From Bacilli bacterium (GTDB lineage Bacteria > Bacillota_I > Bacilli_A > Izemoplasmatales > Hujiaoplasmataceae), in NCBI GenBank assembly GCA_016935815.1, contig JAFGQH010000070.1:1-45276 (forward strand): DNA of 45,276 nucleotides, written 5' to 3'. Both the position numbers and the translations under genes were made by a program. The notes under the pieces were generated by a model. The model was not told where the DNA came from. It did no database searches and saw only the letters and a list, made by a program, of their open reading frames with translations. Shown here in pieces: positions 2,520 to 33,073 of this stretch (its first letter is position 1; the number at the start of each line of letters is the position of its first letter).

Positions 2520-2737
2520 AAAAAAATCGCCCTAAAAAAGGACGACTGTATCGCGGTACCACCTTTGTTCCGGATCAATCCGGCACTCGTATCCTTAACG
2601 CGGACAACGGATTTCACTCCCGAGTTGCGTGAAATCTACTCCATAGACTAATTCAGACAATCTCATATACCGGATTTCACCTCGCTCCGGCTCTCTACAA
2701 TACTTCTTTGTCGTACTATTTCTATTTCTTAGTAGTT
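2520..2737 (-). promoter_or_regulatory. T-box leader riboswitch of leuS
   Basis: The minus strand carries the T-box antiterminator signature AAAGGTGGTACCGCG near 2551-2570. It is followed by a terminator hairpin (CGTCC, T-rich loop, GGGCG, then a T run) at about 2520-2545, just before the leuS Shine-Dalgarno. Upstream are Stem I-like elements (AGAGAGCCGG, GGTGAAATCCGG and a GGAG box). In the T-box family, uncharged tRNA binds Stem I through a specifier codon and stabilises the antiterminator. The triplet TTA (Leu) at 2649-2651, directly after GAA, is my candidate specifier. A CTC lies further downstream as an alternative. Confidence 0.93.
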
Positions 2738-2743
2738 ACAATC

Positions 2744-23400: not shown

Positions 23401-25956
23401 TTATTGATAGTTTAGATAGATACTGTAAGATGAATGTGAGTAATACAAGACATTGATCCAAAGATCATAAAATTCATCTATTTGATCTTGGGTGATTGAA
23501 GCTGGATCAGTGGTCGCCAAAATATGAGCGTTTGCTAGGAATGTTTCTATATCGGCAAGAAGATTCGCTTCGATTGTCGCCACCTCTTCAAATTCAACAT
23601 GAACATCGACTTGGAAGAAGTTGACAAATAGGTATGAGTGTAAGAAAGTTTCATAATCGAATGTGGTATCCGACATGATATCATCTACAATTTTAGCCAA
23701 TTCAATCATTTCTTCATTGGTCGTCAATGCCTCTCGAACCGACAAGAAATTCTCCAGTGCCTGCACTTCATCGAGTGATATTGAGCTGATGAATGAATCA
23801 AACTGGGTGAACATGATTTCCAAATCGCTGACATATTGATTAGCAATACTCAAGTATTCGATTTGCATTTCCGCTTTTTCTGTTTCCGTCAGATCCCAAA
23901 CATTGACATAGTCTTGAACCAGCGCGTTCAAAGCGTCATCCAAAACAATCCATTCCTCGGTCGTAATCGTGCCATATCTCAAATTGATCATCGCCGATAT
24001 CGCTTGTAGAGTGTCAACTAAACCTTGATCGGTTATCACAGAGAACAAGTCCGAAAGATCAATTTCATTGTACATATTGGTATGCCCTACAATATATGTC
24101 ACCAAAGTGGATAATCCGGTTGTGTTTTCTCCGGTATCCGTCATCACCATATTTTGGATATCATCAATAAGAATGTTCAAAGCCACTTCGTATAGACCTC
24201 TATTCTCGGTATTCGTGAACATTGCCCGTAAAGCATCATACGGTGCCATGAAGGTTTCCATTCCATTCAATTGACGTTCCCAGTACTCAAAGTCTTCGCG
24301 TACCAAAGCGTCATAATTTCCAAACGCAACCATGTATTGATTGACATTCAATTTCGCCTGGGTAATGATATCTTCATAAAGGGAATCTGAACCAATCAAA
24401 GCATCGATTGCATTGTTGGCTTGGACTGCGTTGTAATAATCCGTCATAATTTGATAATATTCATCAATTTCATCTTGATATCCTGGATATGTGGTGCAGA
24501 TGGAATTGTATCTGTACACATAGTAATCATATGTGACTTGGTCGATATTGTCTTTGTCCAAAATCATCCAGATTGCATCGTTTAGATCATAGGCGGCCCG
24601 ATCCGGCCAATCGCGGATCGAATCAAAATAAGAAAATTTGATTTTTTCTGTTAAGTTGTAATTCAGATAAGCTTCGAAATAGGTCGATGCATTCTCTTGT
24701 AAGGCTGGATCCAATGCGCTTAGATAAGTTGCCCAGTCCACCTCTGCCTGATCCATTGTCTCAAAATAGGATGTTGCTTCAGCCAAGTAGTAATCATATT
24801 CTGTCTGTACTTCGAGATACCAGTCCCGCTGCAGATCACTCAGTCCAACATAGAAATTATTTCCATAACTGAGATAATTGAACAGATAGGTAATCAGTTG
24901 GTCTTGTGTTACAAATCCGGATTCCAAAGAACTGAAGATATATACAAATTCCGAATAGTTTTCAAATTCAAATAATTCACGATATTGTGCCGTCAAAACG
25001 TTGAAAATTCGATAAGCCTCTTCTTCAGTTTCGGTTTCGAAGATATCTTGAAGATAAACGATATTCTCTTCGATGTTGTCAGTACCTTCAATGTCAAATG
25101 TTTGCGCGACCAAATCGACGAACAATTGATGTTCGTAGTCTCCCGTCGTGGTATATGTTTTATTGTAGGTGGCAATGATGATGATATCCCCTGTGATATT
25201 CGAGAAATCTCCTTGCCATTCATCAAATTCGTATGAGTAGACTTCATCGGATGCTCTCGTAGGATCATCCGGAGGTGTCGCAGAAGAACCATATGGTGTT
25301 GACACCGCTTCAATCAATGTAACTCCGTCATAGTCGTAAAAAGATACTGTATATTCATTGATCGTTTGCAAGAACGTCGCCGTTACATCCAAAGGTCCAG
25401 TGATATTGGAAAAATCAACATCCCAACCATCAAAGGTATAGGAATATTGAACATCACCGACTCGGTCCGGTACATCTGGTGCGGTTGCACCAGATCCATA
25501 GGCAATGCTCTGAGAGTCAATCAATGTGCCGTCGTAATTATAAAAATCCACATCGTAATACCGCAAAGACGCATCATAAACGGCGGTTACCGTCAGATTA
25601 CCAGTAACATTGGTAAAATCCGTATCCCAATGTCCAAATGTATAATCATATTGAGCTGTGCTGGACTTTTCTGTAGGGATAGGCGCAACAGCCGCCTCCC
25701 CTTCTAAAACGCTTTGTGTGCTTACTGTGGCGTCTTCACAGACAAAAGTGACTGTGTAGTACACCGGATCCGTCGATTGCTGAAAAGTAGTATTGGTCGT
25801 CGTCTGCGTAATCGCTATGGTGGTTGAATTTCCTTGTGTTGTGTTCTCCGCGGTTGTGGTTTGCCCCGTCGTTGTTATCGTTAACTTTTGGTCGCAGCCC
25901 ACTAATAAAATACCGGTGAACAATACAATCATCATGAGAATAAAACGTCGTTTCAT
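23401..25956 (-). CDS. Lipoprotein with three InlB-type repeats and a long helical domain
   Basis: The corrected start is ATG 25956 (MKRRFILMMIVLF), behind GGGGGA, giving 851 aa; the ORF track begins nine codons early. The lipoprotein signal ends GILLVGC, so the mature protein begins at that Cys and is tethered outside the membrane. A Thr-rich linker (about 25-60) leads to three tandem InlB B-repeat/Flg_new-type units of about 66 residues (YTVTF...YDYTFGHWD, YDVDF...YTFDGWD, YTVSF...YEFDEWQ). The remaining 560 residues are acidic and mostly helical, with no domain I can name. They share the NILIDDIQNMV module with the adjacent larger lipoprotein, so the two are paralogues. Probable cell-surface adhesion or scaffold role (inference). 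Confidence 0.85.
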   Translation of the reverse strand: MKRRFILMMIVLFTGILLVGCDQKLTITTTGQTTTAENTTQGNSTTIAITQTTTNTTFQQSTDPVYYTVTFVCEDATVSTQSVLEGEAAVAPIPTEKSSTAQYDYTFGHWDTDFTNVTGNLTVTAVYDASLRYYDVDFYNYDGTLIDSQSIAYGSGATAPDVPDRVGDVQYSYTFDGWDVDFSNITGPLDVTATFLQTINEYTVSFYDYDGVTLIEAVSTPYGSSATPPDDPTRASDEVYSYEFDEWQGDFSNITGDIIIIATYNKTYTTTGDYEHQLFVDLVAQTFDIEGTDNIEENIVYLQDIFETETEEEAYRIFNVLTAQYRELFEFENYSEFVYIFSSLESGFVTQDQLITYLFNYLSYGNNFYVGLSDLQRDWYLEVQTEYDYYLAEATSYFETMDQAEVDWATYLSALDPALQENASTYFEAYLNYNLTEKIKFSYFDSIRDWPDRAAYDLNDAIWMILDKDNIDQVTYDYYVYRYNSICTTYPGYQDEIDEYYQIMTDYYNAVQANNAIDALIGSDSLYEDIITQAKLNVNQYMVAFGNYDALVREDFEYWERQLNGMETFMAPYDALRAMFTNTENRGLYEVALNILIDDIQNMVMTDTGENTTGLSTLVTYIVGHTNMYNEIDLSDLFSVITDQGLVDTLQAISAMINLRYGTITTEEWIVLDDALNALVQDYVNVWDLTETEKAEMQIEYLSIANQYVSDLEIMFTQFDSFISSISLDEVQALENFLSVREALTTNEEMIELAKIVDDIMSDTTFDYETFLHSYLFVNFFQVDVHVEFEEVATIEANLLADIETFLANAHILATTDPASITQDQIDEFYDLWINVLYYSHSSYSIYLNYQ

Positions 25957-25992
25957 TGTATTTCCCCCTATTTCATTAATCATGTCTTTTCT

Positions 25993-26020
25993 ATTGTATC
26001 ATAAAACCTTTTTTTATAAA
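25993..26020 (-). promoter_or_regulatory. Promoter of the 851-aa lipoprotein gene
   Basis: TTTATA (26015-26020), a 16-base spacer and TGATACAAT (TACAAT at 25993-25998) on the minus strand. It lies between this gene and the terminator of its upstream paralogue, so the two are separate transcription units. Confidence 0.55.
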
Positions 26021-26025
26021 AAAAA

Positions 26026-26048
26026 GAGGAGCCAATTTATGGCCCCTC
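26026..26048 (-). terminator. Terminator of the 1592-aa lipoprotein gene
   Basis: On the minus strand, GAGGGGCC, a seven-base loop and GGCTCCTC (one G-T pair) are followed by eight T residues. Confidence 0.88.
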
Positions 26049-26056
26049 ATAAATCA

Positions 26057-29000
26057 TTATACTGTTGGTTCAGGTCCTGGTCCCGGTAGGATCGGTCCTA
26101 AGTAGTCTCTCAAATTATTGACCAGTGTGACAAGATATACAATCGTTGCATTGTCCGAAGGTGAAATATCGTTCGGATCGATATCTGCGACAATTGCGGA
26201 TTGAGTCAAAATCTGACCAATCATAGTGATAACTTCAGCGGTCATTGTTGCATTGTCATCATCAAATGTATGACCATTCAACACGTTGATATCATATGTC
26301 AACCCAAACAATGGAGTAAGGATATTGACATAATCTAAATCATCGTCTGCAGCTAGGATATTCAAAATATTTGCAATTGCGATGAGTTGTGCCACTTGAT
26401 CTGCATCTGTTGGTTCCTCAATACCATTTATGGATCCAAGAATCATGATTTGCTGGAACAATACATTGACTTCATCTTCTGTTACTGTCAATAAGAAGTC
26501 TCCCAAATATCCAGGAATATCCATCAAATCTGGAATATATGTCAACAAAGCCAAGTAATCCGCTAAATCAAGAACACTCAAACCTGCAACATCTCCATAA
26601 GCATTGATCAATGCGGTTGCGAATGCGACAATCGTTGCTTCATCTGTAGAATCCAAAGTGGAGAACATATTAGTCATGAAAGTACCAAGTGCCTGAGTCG
26701 CTGCAACTAGCATCTCCGGATCGAGTTGTGGACCATCACCCTTCATAAATAGGAAGGATTCGATCACTGCGTCGATATCGGCGATATAAGTAGCATCATG
26801 ATATGCATCAAGCTGACCCAAAATCATTACGATCATATCTTCTAACAATGCTTGATTGTCTGTATCCGTCAAGAATGCATACAAGACTTCCGGCATACCT
26901 TCTGGCATATCCGTACTATCATACATATCCGGAAGTTGCGGATACAAGTACGTCATGACGAGATTGACAAGATAGGTCGCAATCTCTTCATCTGTGAATC
27001 CGAGTCCCTGAATGTTATTGACAAATTCCAATGCATCAGAGAGAGAATGGATATCTTGAAGGCGATATACTTCTTCCGCTACGCCTAATAAGATGAAATA
27101 CAATTGTTCTCCATCCACAGGATCGATTTCAAAGACTGCACATAATTGTGTGATATAGTCGTCGATTTCTGTTTGTGTCAATGGAATTGGTGATCCAAAT
27201 TCATCTTCTTCTTGGAACATCCAATTAATCAATTCATTCAACATCTCAGGGTCATAACCCCAAGTTGTAGGAACTGTGAGGATTGCTTCTTGGTTCATAA
27301 CCAAGTTCGTCAAGAATTCAACGCGTTGTTGAACCGCTAGGATATCATCGAGATAACCTGGATCCAAAGCTGCTGGATCATAAGCGGCAACGGTTGTGAT
27401 CAAAGCGAAGGTATCGGTGATGAATGTTTCCCATCCATCTTGTAACGCTGTCAAATCAACAGGATGTTCGGTACTGTTCTCTTGATCATAGTACGTTTGC
27501 ATAATTTGATCGCTGATTGCAATCAAATCAAATGTCGTTAAGTTTGCATGTCCGTCAATCAAACCAGCTACTTCGATTACCAATTGATACATATTGAGTT
27601 GACCTGTAGCTGCTTCTTCGATGAAAGCCATCATATCTTCAACATCTGTCAAAGTGAGTGCATCCAAGACATTGGTGATTTCTGTTAATGTCATATCACC
27701 CAAGCCAATATAATCATCGAACAATGCTTCGTACAATGCGATTTCAGCAGCTGCATCCATTGGATCAAGATCCATTCTGTCAACATATAATGTAATCGCT
27801 AGAGTAACGAATGTTTCAATATCTGTGATTTCTGATGAATCAAGTGTCGCTGCTCTTAACTGCAAGAATGTGGATAGATCTTGAACCAGATCATATACTC
27901 TTGCTGGAGTTAAATCGAATTCATCCGGATTGAAGTGTCCATCAGCCATCGTCATATAGGCGATGAAATCAAACAAGACTTCGAAGGAATCATCTGGCAT
28001 TGTAGTAACCATGTTTTGGATATCATCCAATAACAGATTCAACACCGCTTCGAGTTGAGCCTCATTCGTAGGATCGCTAAAGATATCATAGAGTAAGAAG
28101 TCCATAGCGTATTCTTCAGAATAAGTTTCGCCACTCATATCTGGAACTTGTTCAGAAACCAAAGTCATAATGATGCCGACAATCTCTTCTTGTGTATAAC
28201 CAAGAGTTTCCAAATTGCCAACCCATTCACTCAAGTCCGCAAAGTCGCTGATCTTGAATACGCCAAGAGCGTATTGATAGAAGGATTGCAATGTATAGAA
28301 TGTTTCTTCTTCGCCCGAGGTGCCAAGAAGTGTTTCATATTTCAGTAATGCAGCTTCGAAAGCAGGTTGGGTAGATACATCCTCGCCTAACATATCGAAT
28401 GCGCCATACAAGTAATCGGAGTAATATACAGTAACCGGATCATCAATGCCAGTGAATCCGTTTTGGAACCAAGACGGAATCTGCATTGCCATTGCAATCA
28501 TGGTATAGACATCTTCTACTTGAGCAGCTGTTACAAAGGAAGGATTGTATCCTGATACGGTTCCAACCAAATCCAAGAGGTCTGTCATGAATGTATCGAT
28601 TGAAGCTTGTGCAGCAATAACAGTCGGACCATCGGCATTGAATTCGGTAGAAATATCAAAGTAGATTGCTGCCAAATACTGCATCGCTGTATTGATATCA
28701 AAACTGTCATCTCCAATTAGGATTTCTGCTGCTTGAGCTGCTAAAATACCTAAATCGACTTCCGTCATCAAACTACCTAATTCTAATCCATTGGAAGGTA
28801 CCAATGCAAGTAAATCAGCAATTTTGGTGGCGTCCATGGAATCAATTAAAGACAAGAATTCTCCTGACGCGAATTGGATATATGTGATATATCTGTCGAT
28901 GATTGGATCGAACTTCGTCAACAGCGCGTCAACTTCACCAGATGTCTTTCCTTCTTGAAACCACATTTCTTCTGCAATACCAAGTGCGACTGCTTTTAGA

Positions 29001-30835
29001 TTTGCATAATCCGCTGCATCAAAGTTGGAGAAAAATGCGTTCAAAATCGTGTATACATAATCCGTTCCTAAGTCGATGTTTTCCACTGATAACAATGGCA
29101 TGATCATTTGGTATGGAGAATAGTAATAGAAATCTGGAGTATCCATACTTTGTAGCATTTGAATTTGATTCATGATATCCAGTACATAATCCATCATATC
29201 TTGATCCAAAGAAAGGATCACTGCTTCCAAACTGTCATAAATCGAACCAGCCAAAGCTTTGAGTTCTGCTTCTCCAGTCGGATCATTCATATAATTGACA
29301 AATGCCTGAGTTTGAGCCAAATTATTTTGGAGATCCTCAAGCCACCAACCATCTTCGACAATCATCCATTCCATACTGGAGATATCGGATGCAATGATGA
29401 AATAACCATCTGTAATGACATTTCCGTAGTCATCGTAATCACCATATAACATCAAGCTAACAGCATCCATTACGAAAACACCATATCCATCGTCTACCCA
29501 AAGAACATCATATTCATCGGTGTACATCAAGTGATACCAGACATCTCCCCAGTTGATGTATGCATCCAAAACTGGTCCATACAAATCTTGTTCCTCTGTA
29601 GAGAGTGCGTCCCATAATGCATCGTGTTCGGCCTGCGCAGCTGCGGCAGCAACTGAATCGTCATTGACATAGGTTTCCCAAAATACATCATCCATCTTGT
29701 TTGCCAATTCCCAAAATACTTCATCATCCCATGCTTCTGGCAATTCCGTATAATACAAGTTGCTGTACAAAGCATAGAGTTCAGCTTCATCAATGACTTC
29801 GTTCGCATAATCCATACAAATGGTTGCGACACTGGAGTCCAGAGCGGCACAATAATCCGAAATGGCTTGATATTGGTTTGTCAAATCAATTTCTCGAGTT
29901 GCGATATCGCTCTCATATTGATCGATTTCGGCTTCCAATCTAGCGATTTCTTCTGTGTAATGGTTAATATCGTTCGTCATACCGTTAAGCGCGAGATTGA
30001 ACAGGATGTCAATTAATGTATCCTTATCAAATCCCAAAGTATCCAACGATGCATACAATGCTTGCAAGTCGGCAACATCTTCCACTGCCATCATGCCTTG
30101 TTGGACTTGTCTTGCTGCAAATAGCATATTGTACAATTCTTCTGATGTAGATGCGTCCATGACACCCATCAGTTCACTAATCTGCTCATCCACATCGTCT
30201 GGGTCAAACATCTCTACGACGATTGCTTCCAACAAGGTATCATAATTTTCAGCGGATGCGAAGACCGCTGTAACAATTAGATTTCCGGTTATATTATTGA
30301 AAGCTACGTCCCAATGGTCGAACACATAAACATGTTCTGCATCGCTTGGTTTCGTAGGTGTTGTGGTCGGTGCGGTTGCAGCAGAGCCATAATCGACTGT
30401 CTGTGTCTTTAAGACAGTACCATCATAGTTCTTGAATGTAACAGTATATTGTTGCAATACCGGTGTGAAAACCGGATTGATCGTCATATTGCTGGTTACA
30501 TTCGAATAACTTTGATCCCAATGATCAAAGACATAAGTATATTGTGCTGTTGCCACTTTGGTCGGCGTTGTCGTCGGCGTTGCTGCCGTTCCACCTGATA
30601 ACACGGTTTGCGTGTTTAAAGTGGTTCCGTCCCCATTCAAAAAGACAACGGTATAATACGTCTCTGATGTCGATTGTGATACAGTACTCTGTGTTGTCGT
30701 AGTAGTAGTCGTTTGTTGTTGTGTTGTTGTAGTGGTCGCAGTCTCTGTTGTTGTTTTCCCTCCGAAAAGGTCACAACCTGTTAATAAAAATCCTACGACA
30801 AGAAACAACAATACAGTGATAAATTTCCGTTTCAA
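26057..30835 (-). CDS. Giant lipoprotein with two InlB-type repeats and repeated helical modules
   Basis: This 1592-aa protein starts at a TTG codon behind AAGGGGAG. The signal peptide ends FLLTGC, a clear lipobox. A Thr/Gln-rich linker (about 28-60) is followed by two InlB B-repeat-type units (YTYVFDHWDQSYSNVT, then HVYVFDHWDVAFNNIT) to residue 190. The rest is a strongly acidic, mainly helical region. A helical module recurs near residues 265 (LDTLGFDKDTLIDIL), 867 (LETLGYTQEEIVGII) and 1275 (IQGLGFTDEEIATYL), each preceding weaker repeat blocks. The second is followed by LLLDDIQNMV, nearly identical to the neighbouring paralogue. The C-terminus is Pro-rich (LPGPGPEP). No catalytic motif is seen. 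Surface structural or adhesive role is inferred. Confidence 0.85.
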   Translation of the reverse strand: MKRKFITVLLFLVVGFLLTGCDLFGGKTTTETATTTTTQQQTTTTTTTQSTVSQSTSETYYTVVFLNGDGTTLNTQTVLSGGTAATPTTTPTKVATAQYTYVFDHWDQSYSNVTSNMTINPVFTPVLQQYTVTFKNYDGTVLKTQTVDYGSAATAPTTTPTKPSDAEHVYVFDHWDVAFNNITGNLIVTAVFASAENYDTLLEAIVVEMFDPDDVDEQISELMGVMDASTSEELYNMLFAARQVQQGMMAVEDVADLQALYASLDTLGFDKDTLIDILFNLALNGMTNDINHYTEEIARLEAEIDQYESDIATREIDLTNQYQAISDYCAALDSSVATICMDYANEVIDEAELYALYSNLYYTELPEAWDDEVFWELANKMDDVFWETYVNDDSVAAAAAQAEHDALWDALSTEEQDLYGPVLDAYINWGDVWYHLMYTDEYDVLWVDDGYGVFVMDAVSLMLYGDYDDYGNVITDGYFIIASDISSMEWMIVEDGWWLEDLQNNLAQTQAFVNYMNDPTGEAELKALAGSIYDSLEAVILSLDQDMMDYVLDIMNQIQMLQSMDTPDFYYYSPYQMIMPLLSVENIDLGTDYVYTILNAFFSNFDAADYANLKAVALGIAEEMWFQEGKTSGEVDALLTKFDPIIDRYITYIQFASGEFLSLIDSMDATKIADLLALVPSNGLELGSLMTEVDLGILAAQAAEILIGDDSFDINTAMQYLAAIYFDISTEFNADGPTVIAAQASIDTFMTDLLDLVGTVSGYNPSFVTAAQVEDVYTMIAMAMQIPSWFQNGFTGIDDPVTVYYSDYLYGAFDMLGEDVSTQPAFEAALLKYETLLGTSGEEETFYTLQSFYQYALGVFKISDFADLSEWVGNLETLGYTQEEIVGIIMTLVSEQVPDMSGETYSEEYAMDFLLYDIFSDPTNEAQLEAVLNLLLDDIQNMVTTMPDDSFEVLFDFIAYMTMADGHFNPDEFDLTPARVYDLVQDLSTFLQLRAATLDSSEITDIETFVTLAITLYVDRMDLDPMDAAAEIALYEALFDDYIGLGDMTLTEITNVLDALTLTDVEDMMAFIEEAATGQLNMYQLVIEVAGLIDGHANLTTFDLIAISDQIMQTYYDQENSTEHPVDLTALQDGWETFITDTFALITTVAAYDPAALDPGYLDDILAVQQRVEFLTNLVMNQEAILTVPTTWGYDPEMLNELINWMFQEEDEFGSPIPLTQTEIDDYITQLCAVFEIDPVDGEQLYFILLGVAEEVYRLQDIHSLSDALEFVNNIQGLGFTDEEIATYLVNLVMTYLYPQLPDMYDSTDMPEGMPEVLYAFLTDTDNQALLEDMIVMILGQLDAYHDATYIADIDAVIESFLFMKGDGPQLDPEMLVAATQALGTFMTNMFSTLDSTDEATIVAFATALINAYGDVAGLSVLDLADYLALLTYIPDLMDIPGYLGDFLLTVTEDEVNVLFQQIMILGSINGIEEPTDADQVAQLIAIANILNILAADDDLDYVNILTPLFGLTYDINVLNGHTFDDDNATMTAEVITMIGQILTQSAIVADIDPNDISPSDNATIVYLVTLVNNLRDYLGPILPGPGPEPTV

Positions 30836-30985
30836 ATCGTCACTCCCCTTCTTTAGTCCCTATATATGAATCTTGGACTAATTAATATTTAATTAAGATA
30901 TAAATATCATACAACAATAGTAATTAAAAATCCATATAGCAAAGGAAAAAGAATGTAAAATGACCATGTGTAACGTAAAAAAAAA
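30836..30985. other. AT-rich intergenic region upstream of the giant lipoprotein gene
   Basis: No ORF or RNA gene is evident in this stretch. It contains an AT-only imperfect palindrome (TTAATTAAATATTAATTA, about 30880-30897) and a TAGTCC/GGACTA inverted repeat with a 15-base loop (about 30854-30880) close to the lipoprotein ribosome site. No strong -35/-10 pair is visible, so the promoter of the giant lipoprotein gene is unassigned. Confidence 0.5.
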
Positions 30986-31016
30986 GGGTAGTTTGACAAA
31001 ATCCAGTCAACTACCC
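30986..31016 (-). terminator. Terminator of the beta-propeller lipoprotein gene
   Basis: GGGTAGTTGAC and GTCAAACTACCC form a long stem with a single bulge on the minus strand, followed by nine T residues. Confidence 0.9.
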
Positions 31017-31054: not shown

Positions 31055-33073
31055 CTAATCCATCATCCAGATTCCTACAGGATAACCCCAATATGAGTAA
31101 TAAGTTGGGTTTAGTTCCTGTGAATTAACTACTTCGAAATCATTGTTCATATCGAACATATGAATACTGGAATAAGACAAAGTGTAAACATAATTATCGA
31201 TGATGACTGCACGTTCAATACTATCGAAATATTGGTATGTTCCATCTGTATCTTCAATCATATGAGATAATTTGGCTACGAATTCCAAATCACCAGAATG
31301 ATAGACTTTGAATAGATACATACTTTGGGAATAGGTCCAATAGTTTTCATAGTATTCATACACGGGAATACCGATATAAGTGAAATCCGCATCTTGAGGT
31401 GTGAACGATAAGAACGCTTTATGATCCCACTGGACATTGGTATAAGAGTACTCTCCTTCTACCAAATAAGTTTCCAAGTTTACTGGCGTATCTTCTGTCG
31501 TATCATACAACGCTATTTTGACACCAGTGAATCGTGTCCATCCATCCATATCTTCTGCTTGACGACCGATTCCAATCATCAAATTATCAGTAATGATATG
31601 TAGATAATCGCTAACGCCTTCCTCATATAATTCACCAAGCACTTCCGGATTCTCAGGGTCCGACAGATCCAGTTTATAAAGTGGATCGGTATTGACAAAC
31701 GTTACGACATAAGCGATATCTTGATCATAGCGAACAGCATAGATTCGTTCTCCCGGTTTTCCAAGATCGTCAATAGAAGAAACCAAATCCATTTGTTCCG
31801 TAGTAGTCGCATCGAGCAAGTATAATGTATTTGTTACCTCAGATCCGTCCATCGTGTATATGAATCCAGTCGTCGCAATTCGGAAGATGCCGTCATATTC
31901 ATCCATCGAGAATTGATTCAATGGAGACCCATTGACTCTGGCAATTGCTTTGTATACCAAATCTCCATTGACGATTTCAAATCTCAAAACGTGTGTGTAG
32001 TAAGAATAGTAGTGAGTTTCTTCATCATAGATCCAACGGTACACAGTTGTATACAAGTTGTTTTCGCTCATGTAAATACGATATGTGCTACCCAAATATG
32101 CATTGATGTCGGCAGCTTTGGTATCATTTGTCACATCCATCGAGACCAGCATCAAATAACTGTAAGAACTGCTATCATTCGGCATGAAGTAAATCGAATC
32201 AATAGGCATATCAGTCAATTCATCTGATACTGCGGAGTCTCTGAATTGAGGAATGAAATTTTCTTCATCCATTCCATAGGATAGCATATAATTGTTCATG
32301 ATCAGATACAACTGACTGCCAATCATTCTAGTCTCTGTAATGGAAGCTGAATCGAAATACACCTCACGAACCATATCGATATTTTCAATATCACTGATAT
32401 CAAAGACTCGTACGGAACTACCATAGGTGTATCGTCCGTAATAACAATACATGTTGGTGCTATCTGCTGTCGTCGTAACCGAGCTTGTAGTGGTTTCGTC
32501 ATCGTCTGTAGGATCGACTTCATTCACCGTCGTATACACTCCGTCATCGTAATAATAACATACTTTATCATCTTCAAAATAATGATAATCATACGACATT
32601 AAAACGACACGGTCTTGATAGACATAAAGTCCATCAAAGTATCCATTTTCGATATCAAATGAGAATTCGATTTCCAAAGTGTCTGCATTGACGATAAAGA
32701 ATGTCGTTCCGGATGCAATATAGATGTGATATCCATCCGTCAAAATCTTATCTGCTTCTTCCACTCCGTCCACTTGATTGTTGGTTGTTGAATAATCCCG
32801 TTGTTCCGTCGAATCTGCTGCGGGTACAGATGAAGCCATGGTTGTCGTGAAGGCAGCAGTACTTTCCAAGACTGAATCTCCAAACATTCCGGAATTATAA
32901 TAATAGTTTGTGGAATTCAAATTGTCCAACAAGTAATCTTTCAGTTCATCATACGAAGCAAAATGACCTACATTTTCTCCTGTAGGCACATCGCCTGTAT
33001 TGTTGCAAGCCGCTATTGATACAGCCAATAACCCAAATAAAATCAGGGTTAGCATTTTTTGAACGATTTTCAT
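31055..33073 (-). CDS. Lipoprotein with a secreted beta-propeller domain
   Basis: This 672-aa protein has a lipoprotein signal ending LAVSIAAC. A spacer of about 70 residues follows, with a short helix (YDELKDYLLDNL) and a Ser/Thr-rich stretch. From residue 92, TTNNQVDGVEEADKILTDG matches the start of the beta-propeller family PF09826, seen in secreted proteins of Firmicutes and archaea. The rest repeats short strands typical of such propellers (YLMLVSMDV, RIYAVRYDQDIAYVVTF, MIGIGRQAED). Function of the family is not established; ligand binding at the cell surface is an inference. It lies upstream of the two giant lipoproteins but has its own terminator. Confidence 0.82.
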   Translation of the reverse strand: MKIVQKMLTLILFGLLAVSIAACNNTGDVPTGENVGHFASYDELKDYLLDNLNSTNYYYNSGMFGDSVLESTAAFTTTMASSVPAADSTEQRDYSTTNNQVDGVEEADKILTDGYHIYIASGTTFFIVNADTLEIEFSFDIENGYFDGLYVYQDRVVLMSYDYHYFEDDKVCYYYDDGVYTTVNEVDPTDDDETTTSSVTTTADSTNMYCYYGRYTYGSSVRVFDISDIENIDMVREVYFDSASITETRMIGSQLYLIMNNYMLSYGMDEENFIPQFRDSAVSDELTDMPIDSIYFMPNDSSSYSYLMLVSMDVTNDTKAADINAYLGSTYRIYMSENNLYTTVYRWIYDEETHYYSYYTHVLRFEIVNGDLVYKAIARVNGSPLNQFSMDEYDGIFRIATTGFIYTMDGSEVTNTLYLLDATTTEQMDLVSSIDDLGKPGERIYAVRYDQDIAYVVTFVNTDPLYKLDLSDPENPEVLGELYEEGVSDYLHIITDNLMIGIGRQAEDMDGWTRFTGVKIALYDTTEDTPVNLETYLVEGEYSYTNVQWDHKAFLSFTPQDADFTYIGIPVYEYYENYWTYSQSMYLFKVYHSGDLEFVAKLSHMIEDTDGTYQYFDSIERAVIIDNYVYTLSYSSIHMFDMNNDFEVVNSQELNPTYYSYWGYPVGIWMMD

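Follow-up and report, generated by a model that had tools for sequence, protein, structure and literature searches.

Two adjacent minus-strand genes, P0001 and P0002, lie in the window, the whole 45,276-nucleotide stretch of DNA analysed here, which comes from an uncultured wall-less bacterium. Both proteins share one layout, in which a lipobox and a Thr-rich linker are followed by InlB B-repeats and then by long acidic helical sequence, as the original prediction of two paralogous surface lipoproteins had described. P0002 begins with a TTG codon, and an RBS-like AAGGGGAG could be read directly in the sequence 5' of this start. The two genes, their upstream neighbor and the elements between them are:

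23401-25956, minus strand: P0001, open reading frame with an ATG start, encoding a paralogous lipoprotein of 851 aa that has a single helical unit (unit profile, E 4.1e-108)
26026-26048, minus strand: intrinsic-terminator-like stem with a T-run, located between P0002 and P0001 (consensus scan and sequence)
26057-30835, minus strand: P0002, open reading frame of a 1592-aa lipoprotein with three helical units and a TTG start (unit profile matches)
30977-31016, minus strand: intrinsic-terminator-like stem with a T-run, located between the propeller gene and P0002 (direct reading; missed by the consensus scan)
31055-33073, minus strand: PF09826 beta-propeller lipoprotein of 672 aa, the upstream syntenic partner (Pfam E 9.3e-112; adjacent in 18/18 genomes in which both genes are readable)

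Elsewhere in the window, a T-box leader (RF00230, 132 bits; 2535-2739, minus strand) was found upstream of an 847-aa open reading frame at 74-2617. The N-terminal parts of P0001 and P0002 comprise the following elements:

25894-25956, minus strand: P0001 signal peptide with lipobox LLVGC and Cys21 (sequence and pattern count)
25561-25761, minus strand: P0001 InlB-type repeat 1 (profile and alignment)
25357-25560, minus strand: P0001 InlB-type repeat 2 (profile and alignment)
25156-25356, minus strand: P0001 InlB-type repeat 3 (profile and alignment)
30773-30835, minus strand: P0002 signal peptide with lipobox LLTGC and Cys21 (sequence and pattern count)
30659-30772, minus strand: P0002 Thr-rich linker (24 Thr within 60 residues after Cys21)
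30455-30658, minus strand: P0002 InlB-type B-repeat 1 (repeat alignment and Pfam PF09479)
30251-30454, minus strand: P0002 InlB-type B-repeat 2 (PF09479 E 5e-5, 23.8 bits with a cut-off of 27; profile match to Internalin B 2y5p)

By their lipobox and Cys21, P0001 and P0002 are predicted bacterial lipoproteins. The linker of P0001 contains 22 Thr within 60 residues after Cys21, and every intact N-terminus among the homologues in the family bears a lipobox and a Thr-rich linker. By the repeat profile, P0001 has three InlB-type repeats and P0002 has two, the numbers predicted originally. PF09479 matched 13 of the 16 beta repeats of the P0001/P0002 protein family (best E 1.2e-7), and the beta-repeat profile found Internalin B (2y5p, E 2.8e-4) when compared with the PDB. 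Because Pfam detected no LRR family in either protein, P0001 and P0002 are not internalins and have the repeat alone in common with them. Nor are they sortase-anchored wall adhesins, since LPXTG is absent from the ends of both proteins and sortase (PF04203) from all 34 genomes of the bacterial family. Homologues across the family carry 0 to 9 InlB-type repeats and 1 to 3 helical bodies. A same-genus homologue (L163:2661-5089, genome G004) has nine such repeats before its helical unit, compared with two in P0002, and the repeat number thus changes fast. In a single-contig genome (G027), an open frame reported as 5939 aa (L056:7987-18999) contains about 20 tandem InlB-type repeats.

Comparison with relatives defined the repeating element of the helical region as a tandem unit of about 600 aa, present once in P0001 and three times in P0002. 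The unit profile thereby reproduced the predicted count of one versus three helical modules. The units and their parts map as follows:

23404-25137, minus strand: single unit of P0001, middle type, with the arm kept at about 24223-24876 (profile; SH-aLRT 98)
28343-30250, minus strand: P0002 unit 1, residues 196-831, a complete first-type unit that includes the arm (profile; AlphaFold pLDDT 85.3, all-alpha; first-unit clade)
29288-29983, minus strand: helical arm inserted in unit 1, residues 285-516 (missing in units 2 and 3, present in relatives)
29816-29851, minus strand: Cys329 and Cys340 of the arm, placed where one predicted helix turns into the next (each at least 90% conserved among aligned first units)
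27179-28342, minus strand: P0002 unit 2, middle type, without arm, residues 832-1219 (profile; AlphaFold pLDDT 83.9; groups with middle units)
28085-28141, minus strand: arm-loss site of unit 2, residues 899-917 (alignment with arm-bearing relatives)
26060-27178, minus strand: P0002 unit 3, terminal type, without arm, residues 1220-1592 (profile; terminal-unit clade)
26882-26929, minus strand: arm-loss site of unit 3, residues 1303-1318 (alignment with relatives)

As self-BLAST of the whole protein returned only the trivial diagonal, overlapping pieces were compared instead. This self-alignment, suggested earlier as a check, uncovered significant internal repeats in P0002, pairing residues 859-1051 with 1256-1450 (E 1.7e-12) and residues 214-283 with both 836-892 and 1223-1294, at bit scores of 26.9-52.8, whereas 100 shuffles reached 21.6 at most. 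Between the two proteins, residues 579-767 of P0001 aligned with 918-1103 of P0002 in the body (E 4e-11), and the alignment also ran over the InlB-type repeats. The predicted common LxDDIQNMV module was located at residue 596 in P0001 and 935 in P0002. The recurrence of LG[FY]xxxE in P0002 held in part: it is exact only at 878 and 1278, the E being absent from the first copy, LGFDKDT. A unit profile of about 590 positions, into which the window sequences themselves were built, matched P0002 unit 1 at E 2.9e-160 and the bodies of units 2 and 3 at 8e-84 and 2e-60.

In unit 1 of P0002, a cap (residues 214-284) is separated from the body (517-831) by the inserted arm (285-516). Units 2 and 3 keep cap and body, and the arm is gone at matching positions; the profile matches skip about 95-302 and about 100-311, respectively, of 621 model positions. 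The arm of P0001 covers residues 361-578. Thus, the repeat recognized in the original prediction is real, but the prediction missed this arm of about 230 aa, and the unit is larger than was described. Because the arm was lost twice in P0002 while cap and body were kept, it behaves as a removable module. In the model of unit 1, long helices (model residues 76-135 and 283-322) flank the arm, and the cysteine pair sits at the turn (model residues 136-138) that follows the first of them; Cys329 and Cys340 may form a disulphide. The helical gene of another genome (G011; L044:5563-10400) is read as two open frames of 242 and 1351 aa, which could reflect a frameshift or an assembly error.

Structure prediction, also proposed as a check, gave two confident all-alpha models: P0002 residues 196-835, modeled by AlphaFold with 20 natural relatives, reached pLDDT 85.3 and pTM 0.68, and unit 2 without arm reached pLDDT 83.9 and pTM 0.70. 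Foldseek returned nothing at E <= 0.001 for the models of units 1 and 2 against the PDB or for unit 1 against a viral library, so that the absence of a known fold covers solved (PDB) and viral structures; Foldseek identified no known adhesin or coat protein. In line with the expectation that the helical region belongs to no recognized family, Pfam gave no consistent match across 44 helical units, NCBIfam none that was convincing, and the best hit of the PDB profile search was a designed protein (E 0.0027). FANCF, Pkip-1 and 14-3-3 emerged at chance level in the single-protein searches of Pfam, NCBIfam and the PDB. Profile matches to Rab3, DnaD and designed proteins were inconsistent, as were scattered Pfam matches of single members. 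Foldseek also listed MscK, PrgA, SMC and dynein coiled coils, tape-measure proteins and vinculin, all of which were rejected: none had E < 0.001, and TM-scores were about 0.1-0.2. Literature searches retrieved nothing on proteins of the P0001/P0002 type. Within the databases searched, the helical unit belongs to no described family.

We used the unit profile for the search that had been recommended for the helical module. It detected the full unit in 22 of the 34 genomes of the window's Izemoplasmatales family (strong matches, E < 1e-40), and three more had weak matches. None was found in 56 genomes from two other families of Izemoplasmatales, nor outside the order among 395 genomes drawn from the class. 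Relatives that bear a name are Candidatus Izemoplasmatales and MAGs with labels of a similar kind, and most complete homologues contain two or three full tandem units. The unit is a family-wide domain rather than a feature of a pair of orphan proteins. The full unit is absent from some nearly complete relatives, and it is thus not an essential coat.

How the units multiplied was examined in a tree of 45 units, obtained by a quick search with no bootstrap and with several rows on long branches. All 21 first units formed one clade (SH-aLRT 100), terminal units a second one (SH-aLRT 93), and middle units a third, partly weak group. The P0001 unit and its counterpart in locus L065 nested among the middle units (SH-aLRT 98), and P0001 is thus derived from a middle unit. 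Two-unit proteins consist of a first and a terminal unit. As units cluster by position, their duplications are older than the bacterial family. Growth by recent duplication was rejected on the basis of these positional clades, and the proposal that the repeat numbers reflect growth of the two proteins by internal duplication found no support in the form in which it was made. The arm is kept in units 2 and 3 of three same-genus relatives (L038, L039 and L041) and in unit 2 of a fourth (L040), these being the ones readable that far. Since they retain it, its absence from these units of P0002 is most simply explained by a deletion in the lineage of the window, and the recent change visible in P0002 is the loss of the arm from units 2 and 3. 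A solo one-unit lipoprotein of the first-unit type was observed at another chromosomal place in genome G006 (L160:6630-8708).

What could such proteins do? With moderate confidence, we propose that they build an acidic, repeat-built, lipid-anchored surface rod or coat for contact with surfaces, particles or other cells. Judged from the lipobox, the proteins would be exported and then lipidated at Cys21. The Thr-rich linker, presumably flexible, and the stacked InlB-type repeats could act as a spacer raising the helical units above the membrane, where one to three all-helical units in a row would form the outer part of the protein. Each unit would combine a body with a cap whose helical arm may project, with the conserved two-cysteine turn in units of the first type. 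Surface exposure of P0001 and P0002 and a function in adhesion or as a coat are both inferred, and an extended, rod-like shape of the tandem units is our guess.

The gene neighborhood suggested a different possibility, namely that the helical protein forms a two-lipoprotein complex with the PF09826 propeller. The helical gene directly follows the propeller gene on the same strand in all 18 genomes in which both were readable (G000-G007, G010, G011, G013, G015, G019, G020, G023, G025, G026 and G029), the other genomes being left out of this count because of a contig end or because no propeller was seen. However, the whole block is conserved, from ThiI, GNAT, peptidase and propeller to methylase, RimP and NusA (names assigned by eye except for the propeller), and this makes adjacency by itself a weak argument. 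Moreover, terminator-like stems lie between the genes, and the propeller has a far wider range than the helical gene, occurring in 71 of 90 Izemoplasmatales genomes. Seven relatives (L147, L148 and L150-L154) carry an empty site, where the SpoU-like methylase comes immediately after the propeller. We consider such a complex quite improbable. An operon with the propeller was marked down as well, the stems and the generally conserved block pointing to a fixed location instead. A surface rod or coat encoded at this location remains our preferred reading.

The envelope of the host lineage bears on the mode of anchoring. In 33 of the 34 family genomes, no penicillin-binding transpeptidase was found; the sole match, G019:C40:12172-13092, could be a real retention or contamination. 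Together with the lack of sortase, this agrees with a published reconstruction in which peptidoglycan and sortase were lost in this lineage (PMC10868615). With no sortase and nearly no transpeptidase, lipid anchoring is the obvious way to hold a large surface protein. The helical regions are 18-35% identical, compared with 44-69% for the propeller neighbor, and such fast divergence beside a slower neighbor is expected of an exposed surface protein. Exposed surface proteins that are not essential typically diverge rapidly, vary in repeat number and are present or absent at one site.

The composition is equally distinctive. Where most non-membrane proteins of the window contain about 11-16% Lys plus Arg, the two proteins have 1.8% and 3.2%, and the 45 units, all strongly acidic, have 0.8-5.0%. 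The scarcity of Lys and Arg leaves few trypsin sites and could hide the protein in ordinary proteomics. Strong acidity, so few basic residues, fast divergence and the lack of a wall would all suit a layer that resembles an S-layer or a glycocalyx and passively protects the cell or shields charge, but binds nothing. Such a layer is fairly improbable in our judgment, as strong unit matches are missing in 12 of the 34 family genomes, the gene number is low and no S-layer family matched. A rod or coat making contacts is the reading we retain.

A profile of the body alone recovered more lipoproteins in the family and, weakly, also in another family of the class. They are 710-1880 aa long, very acidic and poor in Lys/Arg, usually with an Fn3-like N-terminus (assigned by eye), and Pfam gave no name to the helical part of those scanned. 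Their profile aligned with the body at an hhalign probability of 95.6% (E 1.1e-8), compared with 0.6% for a reversed control. Loci L195-L206, from several genera and from another family of the class, encode Fn3-like, Lys/Arg-poor helical lipoproteins of 710-1122 aa with no Pfam match. It could be argued that low-complexity acidic sequence was misread as a domain family, given the strongly biased composition and the 14-36% identity of units to the first unit. We find this hardly credible, because real relatives matched down to 1e-23 and reversed or shuffled sequences gave no match below E 0.4, and because the unit boundaries are consistent, the tree is positional and the structure models are confident. 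The helical repeat thus seems to be a genuine and new building block of surface proteins, and it represents a new lineage-restricted domain family within a familiar kind of protein, the giant repetitive surface lipoprotein.

One distant relative in a single-contig genome (G021; L156:6367-12009) is an 1880-aa lipoprotein in which an Fn3-like domain and an acidic helical body are joined to SBP_bac_8 (E 1.8e-14) and Peripla_BP_6 (E 9.2e-22). Two different solute-binding families in one chain are unusual. This fusion comes from a relative in the window's family whose genome is complete, and both HMM and hhalign support the relationship of its body. It would equally suit a role in nutrient capture, in which the helical part serves as a stalk or platform to keep substrate-binding functions at the cell surface and helps to feed transporters. 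P0001, P0002 and the close homologues examined, however, terminate in helical units and lack any binding domain, and no transporter gene was recognized adjacent in the syntenic block. We therefore regard a nutrient-capture scaffold as unlikely for the window proteins, and continue to favor a contact-making rod or coat.

To our knowledge, little has been established about lipid-anchored surface proteins of Izemoplasmatales, and free-living wall-less bacteria meet their environment by lipid-anchored proteins alone. As a tentative extension, possible although less than probable, the new helical domain with its detachable arm and the Fn3-like relatives might constitute a widespread class of acidic lipoproteins that forms the main surface structure of wall-less Izemoplasmatales and related Bacilli, replacing wall-attached adhesins or an S-layer. 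The family-wide repeat is well delimited, its arm is removable, and close relatives either carry it or lack it at a single fixed chromosomal site, so that it offers a defined target for questions of surface function. Neither Pfam nor NCBIfam contains the unit, and the present alignment could directly supply an entry for it.

Among known systems, coiled-coil surface stalks such as enterococcal PrgA (6z9l) are likewise long helical surface proteins, and PrgA stood near the top of the Foldseek list; its E of 0.073 and TM-score of 0.10 are no match and make it an analogy at most. The PF09826 Beta_propel lipoprotein is also an acidic lipoprotein and a neighbor in conserved synteny, but it is unrelated in fold and sequence and has a far wider range, covering bacteria and archaea. 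Izemoplasmatales and another family of the class also have the Fn3-like acidic helical lipoproteins (for example L157 and L195-L206), which resemble P0001 and P0002 in combining a lipobox and a small N-terminal beta domain (by eye) with a Lys/Arg-poor, very acidic helical body that is remotely homologous to the body of the unit. Unlike P0001 and P0002, they have no InlB repeats, arm or tandem units of about 600 aa, and one is fused to two solute-binding domains. Finally, the PF09479 and Internalin B matches liken the lipoprotein repeats to the InlB B-repeat, or Listeria-Bacteroides repeat. Compared with PF09479, however, they are divergent, the alignment covering the first two thirds only, and they would here form a membrane-proximal spacer on lipoproteins, in a number that varies from 0 to 9.
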